Source: a virus
Virus record (IMG/VR): IMGVR_UViG_3300021976_000017
Span: 1-57,168 of that record
Length of the DNA stretch: 57,168 bases
Reading direction: 5' to 3' (one strand)
The position numbers and the translations under genes are program-made. The notes under the pieces are model-generated. The model worked only from the letters and a program-made list of their open reading frames with translations, searched no databases and was not told the DNA's origin. Shown here in pieces: positions 9,247 to 28,740 of this stretch (positions are counted from its first letter, which is position 1; each line of letters opens with the position of its first letter).

Positions 9247-10674
9247 TTAGCAGGCCCGCGCGAGCGCGCGGTACTGCGATGGGTTGAGATTGAACGTCCA
9301 GCCCGCGGCAGCCACGGGGTCGCTGATGGACGCTGGGACGGTGAGGCCGAACCGGTGTCGCGTGCCGTCACGTTCGACCGTGGCGTTGGTGCAGAGCAGC
9401 ACCCGGACCGGCGAGTCGTAGATCTTCGCGGGCACGTCGTACAGCGACAGCTCCTGCCCCGGGTTACCGGGATCGGGCACCGTCTCGCCGACCTGCGCTA
9501 GGCCGGCGTCGGTGACGAACCTGTCCCATCCGAGCTTCTCGATCGCCACACGGCGTATCTCAGCGTTCGGTTCCCGCATGATCCGTTCCGTGTCCCAGCC
9601 GACCTCGATCAGATCAGCTGGGACCGGGGTTCCGTGCCACGCGTGCATCCCCCACCCGTCGGCCCAGGAGATGACTGGCCCGGTCTCGTTGTGGAGCCGA
9701 TGGCTACCCCACCCTGTCGGGCCGACCTGCTCAAGGTGGAGCTCGAGGGGCCGGTCGGAGACCATGACGAAGTCCTTGTGCGGCCACCACCAGCCGGCGG
9801 TCGATGCGGCGTCGTAGGCACGGGACCGATCCCAGGTCTCGCCGAGGTCGAGGTCGGTTTCGTCGCGGAAGAACCCGACCCAGGCTTGCCAGTACCCGGC
9901 CCAATGTTGGCCTCCGAGGCGGTAGTACCAGAGTTTCTGGATGGCATCGGCTATCCCTTGTCGAACCGCGCCGCCAACCGCGCCGCGAACCGCGCCGTCA
10001 ACCGCGCCGCCAACCGCGCCGTCAACCGCGCCGCCAACCGCGTCGTGAACCGCGCCGTCAACCGCGCCGTCAACCGCGTCGTGAACCGCGTCGCGAACCG
10101 CGTCGCGAACCGCGTCGTGAACCGCGCCGTGAACCGCGCCGTCAACCGCGCCGTCAACCGCGCCGCCAACCGCGCCGTCAACCGCGCCGCCAACCGCGCC
10201 GTCAACCGCGTCGCGAACCGCGTCGCGAACCGCGTCGCGAACCGCGTCGTGAACCGCGCCGTGAACCGCGCCGTCAACCGCGCCGTCAACCGCGCCGCCA
10301 ACCGCGCCGTCAACCGCGCCGCCAACCGCGCCGTCAACCGCGCCGCGAACCGCGTCGTGAACCGCGCCGCGAACCGCGTCGTGAACCGCGTCGTGAACCG
10401 CGTCGCCAACCGCGCCGCCTCGCTGACGCTCGGCGATCAGATACGCAGCCACGGGAGCAGCGAGCGACCCGACCAGCGGCGACGGCACGCGCACCACGAG
10501 ACCTGGCCACGGGATGCCAGCGAAGCGGTAGCAGTCCCTAGCGCCCTGTTCCCAGGCTGCCCACTCGTCGTCGGAGAGCGGGCCGGTGTGCCATCCGCGT
10601 TCGATCCACTGCTGGGCGTAGAGGCCCATTCGGGCTTGCTGCTCGGGGGTGAGCTTGTCGATGCGTTTAGTCAC
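9247..10674 (-). CDS. DUF6745-like protein with large tetrapeptide repeat domain, 475 aa
   Basis: N-terminal about 95 aa, then about 155 residues of tandem AVxx tetrapeptides (x mostly D/G, H/R-D), then a C-terminal DUF6745-like domain (GGQHWAGYWQAWVGFF, GWWWPHKDFVMVSDRP, LHNETGPVISWADGW). The GTG start at 10674 has SD GGAGGA 5 nt upstream; longer in-frame readings lack an SD. The valine every fourth residue suggests a regular coil or beta-helix. Function unknown. Confidence 0.75.
   Translation of the reverse strand: MTKRIDKLTPEQQARMGLYAQQWIERGWHTGPLSDDEWAAWEQGARDCYRFAGIPWPGLVVRVPSPLVGSLAAPVAAYLIAERQRGGAVGDAVHDAVHDAVRGAVHDAVRGAVDGAVGGAVDGAVGGAVDGAVDGAVHGAVHDAVRDAVRDAVRDAVDGAVGGAVDGAVGGAVDGAVDGAVHGAVHDAVRDAVRDAVHDAVDGAVDGAVHDAVGGAVDGAVGGAVDGAVRGAVGGAVRQGIADAIQKLWYYRLGGQHWAGYWQAWVGFFRDETDLDLGETWDRSRAYDAASTAGWWWPHKDFVMVSDRPLELHLEQVGPTGWGSHRLHNETGPVISWADGWGMHAWHGTPVPADLIEVGWDTERIMREPNAEIRRVAIEKLGWDRFVTDAGLAQVGETVPDPGNPGQELSLYDVPAKIYDSPVRVLLCTNATVERDGTRHRFGLTVPASISDPVAAAGWTFNLNPSQYRALARAC
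9955..10425 (-). repeat. 12-bp tandem repeat tract within coding sequence
   Basis: About 39 degenerate copies of a 12-bp unit (plus-strand form AACCGCGCCGTC or variants with C/T and G/C changes). Because 12 is a multiple of 3, the repeats keep the frame and encode the AVxx tetrapeptides of the DUF6745-like protein. Larger blocks of several units recur, for example about 10000-10130 and 10170-10300, pointing to expansion by slippage or unequal crossing over. Confidence 0.9.
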
Positions 10675-10708
10675 GCCTGTCCTCCGTTGGCGGGTTGGGG
10701 TGGGTCGG

Positions 10709-11974
10709 TCACTGGCTAGCGTCTGCAAGAAGGTCAACCTCTGCCTTGTCCCAGATCGGCGACCACGGCAACTCGCCTCCCCGGTACAGGCCGGCAGGGA
10801 ACTGACGGATGTCGCGGTCACCGCGGAACGTCGCAGCCAGCTCGTACACGTTCTCCGCGCGGCGCTGGATCACACGCCCATACCCAGCCCAGCGTTGCCA
10901 CACCGACGACCCGAACGGCATCTGCGGGCGGCTCGAGCCGTCACCTTTCGGCATGTGATGCTCCAGCCATAGCGCGATGCGGTGGCGGGCCCGGATCCGG
11001 TCGAACACGGCCCGGACCTCATCGGCGGCGGTCTCCCACGAGTCGCGGCCAGTATGGAACGCCTTGTACAGCGACCCGAAAGCGACCAGGGCAGGGCGGG
11101 TTTCCGCTACGACGCGTTCGAGGAGCTGAGCGTCGGCGTGCCGGCGCAGATCCAGCCCCTCGGGGCGCATCCACACATAGGCGTTGTCACCCGTCCAGTG
11201 ACCCAGCCGCGTGACTTGGCTTTGCAGTGGGCGGGACTGCCGGCGGACCGTGGACAGCGGGTTCTCCAGGTCGACGAGCAGGGTCCGCTGCGCCGGGATC
11301 CGCTCCCCCGGCTTGAACGGATGCACCCCCGCAGCGACGGCCTGGCAGATCTGACGGGACAGCCAAGACTTACCCGACCCCTCACCAGCCAGGATCATGA
11401 TCACGTCTTGGCGTTCGATCAGGCCCGGCACCACCCAGTCCTCCGCCCGGTCCGGCTGCGCGAGGAACTGATCCCAAGTCCACAGGCCGTCGACCGCCGC
11501 GTCAGACGCACGCTCATCGATGAGCATGTCCAAGGCGAGGGCTTCCCGCGCGGCCTGGTCCATCAGGTCGTCAGCGTCGACCATCTCCGTGGCCATCTGC
11601 GTGATCCGCGTACCGAGCTTCACCAGCTGCCGGCGGCGGGACGCAGTACGCATCTGCCCGGCGTAGTAGGACAGGTTCCCCGCGACGACGGGCCGGCTGT
11701 ACAGGGTGTGGACGTACGCGGTGCCGCCCACATTGCTCAGTTGGCCGGTGTTGCCGAGCTCGGTGTAGACGGCGGTCGGGTCGGGCGCGATGCCGCGGTC
11801 GGACAGGTTCAGCATGGCGGTGAACATCGCGGCGTGGCGTGGCTGCCAGAAGTCGGCGATGGTGACCATCTGCTGCGCGGCGTTGATGGCTGGCGGTGAG
11901 TTGAGCACCACGGCGAGCACGGTCTGCTCGGCGGCGACCGCGGCCGGGGTCGGGGTTTCGACGTCGTCGGTCAT
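10709..11974 (-). CDS. DnaB/RepA-like replicative helicase, 421 aa
   Basis: DnaB N-terminal-like domain (about 10-110, TPAAVAAEQTVLAVVL and FWQPRHAAMF), then a RecA-fold core with Walker A GEGSGKS (197-203) and a Walker B-like hydrophobic strand ending in D (LLVDLEN, about 230). WLEHHMPKG and GSSVWQRWAGYGRVIQR match RepA-type hexameric helicases. Encoded directly after the replication initiator (ATGA overlap), it is probably the phage replicative helicase. The 35-nt gap to the next gene holds nothing notable. Confidence 0.88.
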   Translation of the reverse strand: MTDDVETPTPAAVAAEQTVLAVVLNSPPAINAAQQMVTIADFWQPRHAAMFTAMLNLSDRGIAPDPTAVYTELGNTGQLSNVGGTAYVHTLYSRPVVAGNLSYYAGQMRTASRRRQLVKLGTRITQMATEMVDADDLMDQAAREALALDMLIDERASDAAVDGLWTWDQFLAQPDRAEDWVVPGLIERQDVIMILAGEGSGKSWLSRQICQAVAAGVHPFKPGERIPAQRTLLVDLENPLSTVRRQSRPLQSQVTRLGHWTGDNAYVWMRPEGLDLRRHADAQLLERVVAETRPALVAFGSLYKAFHTGRDSWETAADEVRAVFDRIRARHRIALWLEHHMPKGDGSSRPQMPFGSSVWQRWAGYGRVIQRRAENVYELAATFRGDRDIRQFPAGLYRGGELPWSPIWDKAEVDLLADASQ

Positions 11975-12744
11975 TGGTCCATCCCGAATTCCCAGCCAGC
12001 GGGACGTTCCTGAGGGGACGCCTTTGTCCCGTTCAGCGAACCCCAATGCTTGGCTAGCGCTGATGGTGTGAGCGTCGCGTCGCGGAATCGTTGTCGGAAG
12101 TTCCGAGCACGAAGCGTCACCTGCCCGGGAGTGGCATCGACGGAGCGGAGCTCCTTCAGCGCCTTGTTGACGGCGCCGCGGCCGGAGTCGGTCAGCGTCT
12201 TCGGGTCGATGCCGCACGCCGAGGTGAGGGCGTCGAATAGTTCGTCTCGTTCACGCGGCGGCTTGTCCGGCGCAATACCTTTCCCTGTTCCCTTCCCTGT
12301 TCCCTGATCCGCGGGCGCGCGCGAGGGTGGTGAGGGCTCAGTGCGGGCTCCGTGAGGGCTCACTGAAGGCTCACTGAGCGATCCGTGATCACGCGATGAG
12401 GGCTCATGCTTCGGGCAGTGAGGAATCCGTGACGGGGAAGGGCGATTCACCTTCTGGTGCTCGTCCCAGTTGACGAGGTGCAGGTAGCGCTTGCCGTCAA
12501 CTTCGTACCGGCATAGCGGTCCAGAGGCGGCTATCTCGCTGAGGTGCTGGTCGAGTTTCTTGATGGTCATGTCGTCGTCGAGCGGGTATAGCTCGGCTTT
12601 GATGAGACGCACGTCGTCCAAGCCGCGGCCTAGGTCGTCGAGGTACCCGGGTAGGCCGACGAACGTCCATCGGACGGGGTAGGGCCACGAGCACACCGTG
12701 TGGCTCTTCCGCATCTCAGGTTTGACCGAACGTATCCGCGCCAT
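11971..12744 (-). CDS. replication initiator/helicase-loader-like protein, 257 aa
   Basis: N-terminal winged-helix region (MARIRSVKPEMRKS, then LPGYLDDLGRGLDDVRLIKAE and KRYLHLVNWDEHQ), typical of actinophage replisome organisers. A Ser/Pro-rich linker (about 103-150) follows, then a helical C-terminal domain (LTSACGIDPKTLTDSGRGAV). The linker DNA contains an 11-bp iteron array, as lambda O contains ori. Followed by the helicase gene with a 4-nt overlap. ATG at 12744 abuts the stop of the preceding gene. Confidence 0.82.
   Translation of the reverse strand: MARIRSVKPEMRKSHTVCSWPYPVRWTFVGLPGYLDDLGRGLDDVRLIKAELYPLDDDMTIKKLDQHLSEIAASGPLCRYEVDGKRYLHLVNWDEHQKVNRPSPSRIPHCPKHEPSSRDHGSLSEPSVSPHGARTEPSPPSRAPADQGTGKGTGKGIAPDKPPRERDELFDALTSACGIDPKTLTDSGRGAVNKALKELRSVDATPGQVTLRARNFRQRFRDATLTPSALAKHWGSLNGTKASPQERPAGWEFGMDQ
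12331..12440. repeat. 11-bp iteron array, candidate replication origin
   Basis: Ten consecutive 11-bp units of form TGAGGGCTCAC: units start at 12331, 12342, 12353, 12364, 12375, 12386, 12397, 12408, 12419 and 12430. Units 1-4 and 7 match best; 5, 6 and 8-10 are degenerate but keep phase and usually the TGA start. Eleven is not a multiple of three, so protein repetition cannot explain the periodicity. One unit per helical turn inside an initiator gene is what an origin would look like. Confidence 0.7.
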
Positions 12745-12930
12745 TTACTCGGGTATCCCTTCTCGCAGCTCGTCGATGGTTGCTCCGAGCAGGGCCATCC
12801 GGGTGTCATCGGCGTCGCTGCGGCAGTCTGGGCACCAGTGCCGATGCCCCAGGATCGACAGGGCGAGCACGATCCGGGCGTTCGCCTGCCGGAACTCGTG
12901 ACGGGCTTCGACCTCAGCACCGGACGTCAT
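12745..12930 (-). CDS. small protein with CxxC, 61 aa
   Basis: Helical small protein with HRHWCPDCRSD, a possible zinc knuckle. ATGA overlap with the upstream gene; its stop abuts the initiator start. Unknown function. Confidence 0.7.
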   Translation of the reverse strand: MTSGAEVEARHEFRQANARIVLALSILGHRHWCPDCRSDADDTRMALLGATIDELREGIPE

Positions 12931-13496
12931 GACGGCACAGGCGGGGTTGAGACGAGGCGACGTTTGGCTTCACCAGTGGGGACGCCGCCGAGCAGCTGAC
13001 CGTCCGTGCTGACGGCGAGGGTCCAGTCGTACGCCCACACAGCCCACCATTCGTGCGCGGCCGCGCCGTAGTGGTGTTGGCCGCCGGGGTGGGGTGTCCA
13101 GCCGCCGCAGTCGCAGCCCGGGGTCGGGCATTTCTTGCCGCGTTTCCCGTGGGTGATCTCGGGGCGTTCCGCGTAGGTTGCTAGCCGGCCGGCGACCATC
13201 GGGCATGCCTGCTCGGCGTAGGTGGCGCACCATGGATGCAGCGGCGGCTCAGTGAGGTAGGTGTCCAGCTGGGTGGGTCCGCCGAGGAACACGACCGGGC
13301 GGAGTTTCAGCGGTTCGCCGCAGGTTTGGCAGATGCCTTGGGTCCAGGCCTGCATCCATTTTGTGTGGTGGGTGGTGCGGAAGTCGACGCCGCCGTCGGC
13401 GAGGGGGACGTTCACCCAGGGTGCGACGAGGCCGCCGATGGTGGGGCGGTGGGCGAGCGTGACCGGGATCGGGGGCCGGACCTCGGGTTTCGTCAT
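12927..13496 (-). CDS. zinc-binding-like phage protein, 189 aa
   Basis: Unrecognised protein rich in Cys, His and Trp: CQTCGEPL, HPWCATYAEQACPM, CPTPGCDCGGW. It probably binds one or more metal ions. Overlaps with both neighbours place it in the replication operon. Confidence 0.75.
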   Translation of the reverse strand: MTKPEVRPPIPVTLAHRPTIGGLVAPWVNVPLADGGVDFRTTHHTKWMQAWTQGICQTCGEPLKLRPVVFLGGPTQLDTYLTEPPLHPWCATYAEQACPMVAGRLATYAERPEITHGKRGKKCPTPGCDCGGWTPHPGGQHHYGAAAHEWWAVWAYDWTLAVSTDGQLLGGVPTGEAKRRLVSTPPVPS

Positions 13497-26826: not shown

Positions 26827-28740
26827 TCAGCCGGCCAACTCGGCAGGGTCCTCCGTCGCCGACCACACACCGTGCCGGACCTGCACCGCGAGGCCGTCCT
26901 GTTCGAGGCGTCGCAGCGTGGACGACACAGTCGGCAGCGGCGCCCCGACCCGCTCAGCCAACGCGCCGGTGCGGATCTGGGCATGCTCACGGAGCTGGGC
27001 GAGGATCGCGTCGCGGGTCGACCGTGCGACGTCATCGACGGGGGCGAGCTCGATGACGGCCGCTGGTTCCCGTTCGTCGTCGTCGCGGCGGGCCCGCCAG
27101 TTCGCGTAGTCCTCGCCGGCGTCCTCAGCTGCCGCAGCGTCGAGCGTCACCGAAGGCGCCGGGCAAGTCGCCCAGTAGTACGGGTCCTCGACATACTGCC
27201 CACGCATCGGCGACACCCGGCCACCGGCCGACGCGACATACCCCAGCCCGGCCGTCGACGAGCCGTCGGGCCACTGCTCAGGCAGGTTCACCGGGTCCAC
27301 CGGCAGATCCTTCGGCATGCCCATCTTCCCCGACAGCCGGTCCGACGTGCGGAACATGACGATGTTCATCGACGACACCATCGACCGGATCGTGACGTTC
27401 CCGCCGAGCTCCCCCACCGACGGGACCTGCGCGACGACGTCGACGGACACACCGAGTTTGCGGCCCTTCTTCGCGATCAGGGCGATGATCCCCACGCAGT
27501 CGGGGTCGTTCATCACGTCGGGGGATTCGTCGATCACGATCGTCAGCTGCGGCTCGGCCGGGGTCGGGTCGAAAGCGGCGAGGCCGCGCCGCTGCCGGCC
27601 CTGCTCGTCGGTCCACACGCGTCGGGCGCGGCGCTTCTTCCGCCCGTTCATGACCCGTTCAGCGGCCTGCAGCATGCGGCGGATCTCCGGCACCGACGGC
27701 GCGAACCAGTCGGCGGCGTCCTGCCAGTCGGGGACGGAGACGCCTTCCTCCGGGTCGGCGAGCCACAGCACGACGACACCGGAGTGGCGGATCTCGGTGC
27801 ACAGCAGGTTGATGAATGTCGACTTCCCGGAGCCGGTGGTGCCGGCGATCAGCCCGTGGCAGGCGCCCGAACCGGGGGTGAACAGCCGCCAATAGGCGGT
27901 GGTGCCGTCGGCGTAGACGCCGATCGGGAATTGCCCGGTGGCCAGGTCGAGTTGCGGGCCGGTGAACGTCTGCGTCGTCTGCAGAGGATTGCGGGTCAGC
28001 ACGAGCAGCCGCGCCCGGTGCGCCTCCCCGGTGGCCGGCGCTTCGATCACGACCGACGTGCCCGGTACGCCGTAGGCGGAGGCGATGCGGCCGGCGGCGC
28101 TGATGGCCTCGATCGTGGTCTGCTTGCCGCCGACCAGCGCGATCGACGCGGACCATCCGGTGGGCATCGGCGCGACGTCGTAGAGCCGTGACCCGGGCAG
28201 TGCCCCGCCCTGGCCGGCTACCCGCTGCGCCCACACCTCGAACCGGTCGTCGTCGTCGGGGATCTGCGCGCGGATCCGGTGATGCCACCACCACGGCACC
28301 GCGGCGGCGACGAACAGGGCGGCGAGCCAGCCGGGCATCGGCGGGCCGAACCCGATGATCGCGGTGGCCTGCAGCCATCCGAAGCCGGCGAGGAACACGC
28401 CGGCGGCGTAGACCCGCTCGGCCGTCCTCCAGCCACGCCGGTGGGCACGCCACCAGGTGAGCAGCCCGAGCGGCAACGCGAACAGTGCGACGGTGTTCGC
28501 GCCGTGGGGGCTGACCGCGAACACGACACCCGCGATGTACAGCAGCAGCGCGGCGACGAACGGGGCTAGCGGCCGGCGGCGGGCGAAGGAATGCCGGGCG
28601 ACCGCGCGGCTGGCCCGCCACGTCACCCGGGCGGCGCCCCGCTTCCGGCCCGGTGTGCGGGTCAGGGCACGGTTCTGGGCGTGCAACGCTCGGCGCACCG
28701 CAGCATCGATGTCCGGGCTGGGGGCTGGCTGGCTGTGCAT
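26827..28740 (-). CDS. TraB/FtsK-SpoIIIE-like DNA translocase, 637 aa
   Basis: N-terminal membrane segments (about 60-77, 82-98, 110-130, 135-152), then an FtsK-type motor: Walker A GTTGSGKST (300-308), Walker B VIDE (402-405), then VVAQVPSVGELGGNVTIRS. The C-terminus is a winged helix (about 570-628, STRDAILAQLREHAQIRTGA). This layout matches the TraB translocases that move double-stranded plasmid DNA between actinomycete hyphae and recognise short repeats with their winged helix. SD GGAGG upstream of the ATG. Unusual in a siphophage genome. Confidence 0.87.
   Translation of the reverse strand: MHSQPAPSPDIDAAVRRALHAQNRALTRTPGRKRGAARVTWRASRAVARHSFARRRPLAPFVAALLLYIAGVVFAVSPHGANTVALFALPLGLLTWWRAHRRGWRTAERVYAAGVFLAGFGWLQATAIIGFGPPMPGWLAALFVAAAVPWWWHHRIRAQIPDDDDRFEVWAQRVAGQGGALPGSRLYDVAPMPTGWSASIALVGGKQTTIEAISAAGRIASAYGVPGTSVVIEAPATGEAHRARLLVLTRNPLQTTQTFTGPQLDLATGQFPIGVYADGTTAYWRLFTPGSGACHGLIAGTTGSGKSTFINLLCTEIRHSGVVVLWLADPEEGVSVPDWQDAADWFAPSVPEIRRMLQAAERVMNGRKKRRARRVWTDEQGRQRRGLAAFDPTPAEPQLTIVIDESPDVMNDPDCVGIIALIAKKGRKLGVSVDVVAQVPSVGELGGNVTIRSMVSSMNIVMFRTSDRLSGKMGMPKDLPVDPVNLPEQWPDGSSTAGLGYVASAGGRVSPMRGQYVEDPYYWATCPAPSVTLDAAAAEDAGEDYANWRARRDDDEREPAAVIELAPVDDVARSTRDAILAQLREHAQIRTGALAERVGAPLPTVSSTLRRLEQDGLAVQVRHGVWSATEDPAELAG

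Follow-up and report, generated by a model that had tools for sequence, protein, structure and literature searches.

Can short repeats lying inside a phage gene be the place where replication of that phage begins? This question is raised by a locus in the virus record IMGVR_UViG_3300021976_000017, of which we analyzed positions 1 to 57,168 (57 kb, hereafter the window). The gene concerned (11971-12744, minus strand) encodes a protein of 257 aa that matched PHROG 2149 (E 5e-33, residues 2-194) and PHROG 1408 (E 3e-25, residues 1-127) in profile searches, and, as judged from these matches and an AlphaFold model, its product is a phage replication initiator. Profile searches returned no Pfam or NCBIfam family for this protein, a sequence search of solved structures gave no relatives, and its homologs in viral contigs, none of which were found via single-sequence search, were recovered via alignment queries. 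A megablast of positions 1-25000 of the window against known phages was also without a match. The stop codon of the initiator gene overlaps by 4 bp (ATGA) with the start codon of a DnaB-type helicase gene (10709-11974, minus strand; Pfam DnaB 1.4e-19, AAA_25 4.5e-19; PHROG 19), and other genes in the window encode a portal protein, terminase, RecT and a methyltransferase. Close by, an ORF at 9247-10821 (minus strand) contains ~38 copies of a 12-bp repeat (9964-10417, 90% match) encoding a long GAVDGAVHDAVRGAV-type run ahead of a DUF6745 domain; this repeat is in frame and can therefore be a protein-level repeat, unlike the arrays in the initiator gene. The protein encoded at 26827-28740 (minus strand) combines an FtsK/SpoIIIE-like segment with a C-terminus resembling transcriptional regulators, and is an odd neighbor for the phage structural genes beside it.

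The AlphaFold model of the initiator consists of a winged-helix domain (residues ~1-104, with the winged helix confidently predicted at ~10-100), a low-confidence linker (~111-165) and a helical C-terminal part (~168-237). The encoded linker is Ser/Pro-rich, and the two repeat arrays described below, A and B, lie mostly in its codons, in agreement with the original prediction that the repeats run through the linker of the initiator. Array A consists of ten consecutive 11-bp units on the minus strand (12335-12444), which match the consensus CTCASTGAGCC at 10, 10, 10, 11, 7, 6, 6, 8, 7 and 6 of 11 positions. The four strong iterons form the core (12335-12378; TRF called period 11 at 12330-12378), and the six degenerate in-phase units (6-8 of 11 matches) form the outer part (12379-12444), in which several units keep one intact half-site (CTCA or TGAG). 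The mean match score in the genome is 3.4, and scores of at least 6 occur at just 6.8% of sites. The ten-unit sum of array A is 81, compared with 54 at the next best place in the 57 kb, and the six outer units, which were not used in defining the consensus, sum to 40, a value reached at 14 of 114,196 positions. Ten in-phase units had been predicted at 12331-12440; the array is there, but it is made of four good and six degenerate units and its phase is that of 12335-12444. Since the units are partly dyadic (CTCA-S-TGAG plus CC), the unit given in that prediction, TGAGGGCTCAC, describes this array on the opposite strand, with the register shifted by 4 bp. The lag-11 signal of the initiator gene was reached by 2 of 5000 synonymous shuffles, indicating that the period is not imposed by the protein or its codons, and the same test gave 0 of 221 control ORFs at p<=0.01, which bears out the proposed constraint at the DNA level.

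Directly 3′ of array A lies a second array that was absent from the original prediction. Array B (12281-12307, minus strand) is the G/A-rich tandem GGGAACAGGGAAGGGAACAGGGAAAGG (TRF period 12, 100%), is unique in the window, has a GC content of 59% (16/27) and gave a synonymous-shuffle p of 0.02 at lag 7. It is contained in the least stable 36-bp segment of the initiator gene (12273-12308), which according to nearest-neighbor duplex energies is less stable than 99.8% of such segments in the 57 kb. As we read the sequence, the 11-bp array is thus half of a structure in which array B is an equal part.

We then asked whether this arrangement extends beyond one gene. Homologs were gathered from 193 phage records and several hundred loci across several bacterial phyla, and 300 non-redundant initiator genes were each compared with their own synonymous shuffles. 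Array A was significant in 114/300 homologs at p<=0.01 (168/300 at p<=0.05) and array B in 227/300 at p<=0.01 (260/300 at p<=0.05), compared with 0/221 and 1/221, respectively, of the control ORFs from the same loci at p<=0.01. In 140 of the 145 genes with both arrays at p<=0.05, array B was located 3′ of array A. The significant periods of array B were 5, 7, 8 or 10 bp, usually one of the first three; periods divisible by three were excluded, as they could arise from the codons. Common units in the homologs were (GGGAACA)n, (GGGGAACA)n, (GGGAA)n, (GGAAA)n and (GGGAGCA)n, and in the initiator gene of L171 (Xenophilus azovorans) array B takes the form of a longer unit, GGGAAGGGAGAGGAA, repeated several times, with signals at lags 20, 25 and 35. 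Counting of GGA was dropped as a test for array B in favor of the period tests, because the encoded linker is Gly/Glu-rich and the count therefore has low power. The Ser/Pro-rich composition of the linker and its low-confidence prediction would fit repeats that merely reflect a low-complexity protein segment or chance. This explanation has a negligible probability in our view, since none of the periods 5, 7, 8 and 11 is divisible by three, the periods hold up against synonymous shuffling, and the false-positive rate in the control ORFs was clean; at the family level, a protein-level or slippage origin of the arrays is ruled out by these two comparisons.

The composition of array B bears on how it might work. 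In the family, its mean GC content is 58%, compared with 62% for the initiator genes, and it is less stable than a median of 88% of the segments in its own gene. Since array B is not AT-rich, its designation as an unwinding element is something we infer. Its coding strand is ~86% purine and contains 3% T, a property expected if array B acted via RNA or transcription, with a purine-rich non-template strand forming an R-loop or G-quadruplex and transcription of the initiator gene opening the origin. A strict G3+ quadruplex motif was indeed found on the coding strand of array B in 121 of 300 genes, compared with 32 expected, and the other strand was not enriched; the motif is nevertheless absent from most genes, so that a strict quadruplex is not a shared, defining feature of array B and was rejected as its description. 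Fixed periods of 5, 7 and 8 bp moreover suggest the spacing of a protein, beyond composition alone. We regard an action through transcription as a doubtful, though not far-fetched, reading, and transcription-driven opening of array B can be compatible with an origin fired by the initiator.

The iteron cores in the homologs share the dyad CTC..GAG and occur as CTCASTGAG, CTCGCGAG, CTCGNCGAG and CTCCGGAG. Of all columns in the DNA-binding domain, the one following HQ[KR][IV] had the highest mutual information with the core class (1.43), and the runner-up (0.75) adjoins it. In the window, this column is Asn100 (motif HQKV-N-RP), the predicted specificity residue, whose codon (12445-12447, minus strand) abuts the end of array A. 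Asn goes with the arm CTCA, Asp or Glu with CTCG, and Ser or Gln with CTCC (Gln in one case), a rule that was derived on 97 labelled genes and holds in 163/163 (D/E to G 103, S/Q to C 36, N to A 24). A held-out test on 158 additional non-redundant genes, with the classes named by arm base, gave agreement in all labelled cases (N 5/5, S 16/16, D/E 56/56). Without a threshold, 210 of 220 cases agreed and 10 went against the rule, compared with an agreement of 306/499 (61%) after synonymous shuffling. On a tree built without residue 100, the arm base changed 11 times, compared with 55 changes expected with shuffled labels. The well-supported independent switches, four for N and three for D/E, were all concordant, and the two for S were concordant except that in an occasional pairing the base was the same on both sides; none went in the wrong direction, but each set is too small for formal significance alone. 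Even among initiators with 70-77% identity in the DNA-binding domain, residue and iteron were found switched together. This covariation makes it very likely that the initiator recognizes its own iterons. Pairing of Asn with adenine, and of Asp with the cytosine opposite G, is sensible protein-DNA contact chemistry, and residue 100 may contact the arm base directly.

Alternatively, array A might be an operator or timing site for the initiator's own operon, with the origin elsewhere. Initiators often autoregulate, which would suit such a role, and two further observations point in this direction. In many homologs, a second iteron cluster of the same class is present in the part of the gene coding for the DNA-binding domain (gene nt 120-270), where motifs of the matching class occur at 4-7 times the frequency expected from synonymous recoding, and mismatched motifs mostly show no enrichment; examples are L003 (1669-1708) and L010 (1665-1708), ~170-190 bp from the linker array. 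This second cluster suggests looping or autoregulation. In the window, the corresponding part of the gene contains a single near-match, CTCGCTGAG (12535-12543). Secondly, a perfect isolated iteron, CTCACTGAGCC, is found at 13246-13256 (minus strand), ~0.8 kb upstream and inside the ORF 12927-13496; it is possibly an extra initiator site or a chance occurrence. However, an operator has no need of ten in-phase units within the linker or of an array B conserved 3′ of array A, and the origins of lambda and pSK41 are known to lie inside the gene in just this way, between the parts encoding the DNA-binding and the C-terminal domain. We therefore consider it improbable that array A serves only as an operator.

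The initiator also appears to be modular. In 45 discordant cases, the period of array B followed the nearest relative in the DNA-binding domain 29 times and the nearest relative in the C-terminal domain 7 times, which suggests that the DNA-binding domain and the putative origin move as a cassette and leaves a link between array B period and C-terminal domain unsupported. A natural parallel to this exchange in phage initiators is plasmid pPR9, in which the N-terminal domain and the origin were exchanged and the C-terminal domain was kept (PMC5703833). Such an exchange might also be taken to mean that the arrays are a recombination joint, and a parS-like partition site could be considered as well, as the parS of phage RedRock has eight 8-bp direct repeats (PMC7157519). 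Yet module exchange accounts for mosaic C-termini and not for phased repeats, and array A covaries with a DNA-binding residue of the initiator itself rather than with ParB, which makes both roles very unlikely.

Taken together, we consider with good confidence that 12273-12444 is a theta-type origin within the linker-coding part of the initiator gene, where the initiator would bind array A and open array B and the helicase would be loaded. The original prediction that the 11-bp iterons are likely a phage origin thus gains weight from the profile-based assignment of the initiator, the DnaB-type neighbor, a layout repeated in hundreds of homologs and the covariation. Both arrays, selection at the DNA level, the fixed order and the residue-base covariation are the parts of this model that the sequences support; initiator binding, opening at array B, helicase loading and origin firing are steps that we infer. 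The tandem iterons of array A would all be bound from the same side of the DNA by the winged-helix domain, probably as dimers on the CTCA-S-TGAG dyad, and residue 100 would read the base at position four of each iteron arm. The crowded nucleoprotein on array A might then strain and open the adjoining array B, with its unequal strands and weak duplex, and the helicase encoded next door would be loaded there; the initiator, transcription (via an R-loop) or both may bring about the opening. GC skew shows no sharp switch or clear inflection at 12.3 kb, which counts against this model, as does the degeneracy of six of the ten iterons. Rep proteins of plasmids contact a single strand of the repeats found in the unwinding region (PMC4081077), and array B, being repeated and strand-asymmetric, could by analogy be a G/A-rich counterpart of these elements.

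This organization resembles that of phage lambda, where the iterons bound by the O protein lie inside gene O and adjoin an AT-rich tract that unwinding requires (PMC7466680). In both cases the iterons lie in the linker region of the initiator gene, between its DNA-binding and C-terminal parts, an opening tract (putative in our phage) adjoins them and a helicase-related gene follows (PMC7466680). In contrast to lambda, the iterons are 11 bp here and longer in lambda-type origins, the phage carries a DnaB-type helicase gene of its own, and the place of the AT-rich tract is taken by the G/A-rich tandem array. The parallel with lambda that had been drawn for this locus hence applies to the intragenic iterons in the linker and not to the AT-rich tract. 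The staphylococcal RepA_N plasmids, among them pSK41, are just as close a parallel. The rep gene of pSK41 has four Rep boxes at its center, in the codons of a linker that the protein can do without; in RepA_N proteins of the pSK41/pTZ2162 type, the N-terminal domain has a winged-helix fold and binds iterons that are partly palindromic, and the C-terminal domain is host-specific (PMC5703833). Repeats in mid-gene, a predicted winged-helix N-terminal domain and partly palindromic iterons are features of the phage locus too. Differing from it, RepA_N iterons converge on a poly-A tract (PMC7145576), whereas those found here are GC-rich dyads of 8-9 bp at 11-bp spacing, and array B is not described in RepA_N plasmids. 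The best Foldseek hits for the initiator model were the RepA_N initiators 4pt7 and 4pql; these were weak (E 0.03-0.04), and their VIA-align Z of 7.0-7.6 lay among those of many other winged helices. Neither RepA_N (PF06970) nor the lambda O family had a Pfam match in the window protein or among 67 homologs, so the initiator appears to work like both systems and is filed in neither protein family. RK2/TrfA-type iteron plasmids have their origin outside the rep gene and differ further by AT-rich 13-mers and a Rep with two winged helices. Iterons combined with an opening element of strand-specific direct repeats are common to both (PMC4081077). For the RepA of the mycobacterial phages Miko and Jeeves, the initiator gene is sufficient for replication, and the authors suggested an origin just upstream of or within repA, similar to the situation here; that system serves prophage maintenance, and no repeat motifs were seen in the regions examined (PMC7157519). 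Among these systems, a candidate origin of the lambda/pSK41-like intragenic type, with a G/A-rich instead of an AT-rich opening zone, is our best reading of the locus.

An origin of this kind is already known; the parts that look new are the G/A-rich array at which opening would occur and the rule that ties specificity to one residue, both spread over several phyla. Our literature search found no paper on these arrays or on the residue-base code; it was confined to open-access papers, and this absence therefore carries little weight. Probably, the locus represents a widespread, unnamed class of phage origins, characterized by a two-array cassette in the linker, by the code pairing Asn with A, Asp/Glu with G and Ser with C, and by cassette exchange. 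The proposed layout would comprise 11-bp CTC..GAG iterons followed by a GGA-tandem opening array that replaces the AT-rich element, in phages of Actinomycetota, Pseudomonadota and other phyla. As far as we are aware, replication origins have been mapped in only a minority of actinobacterial phages; the sequence rule would locate the origin in hundreds of these phages and indicate which of their initiators have a common specificity. A specificity switch that depends on one residue also lends itself to simple tests. How a GC-rich phage would open its DNA at a G/A-rich instead of an AT-rich repeat is a further question posed by this locus. If the proposal is true, the origin and the specificity of this class would be readable from sequence alone.
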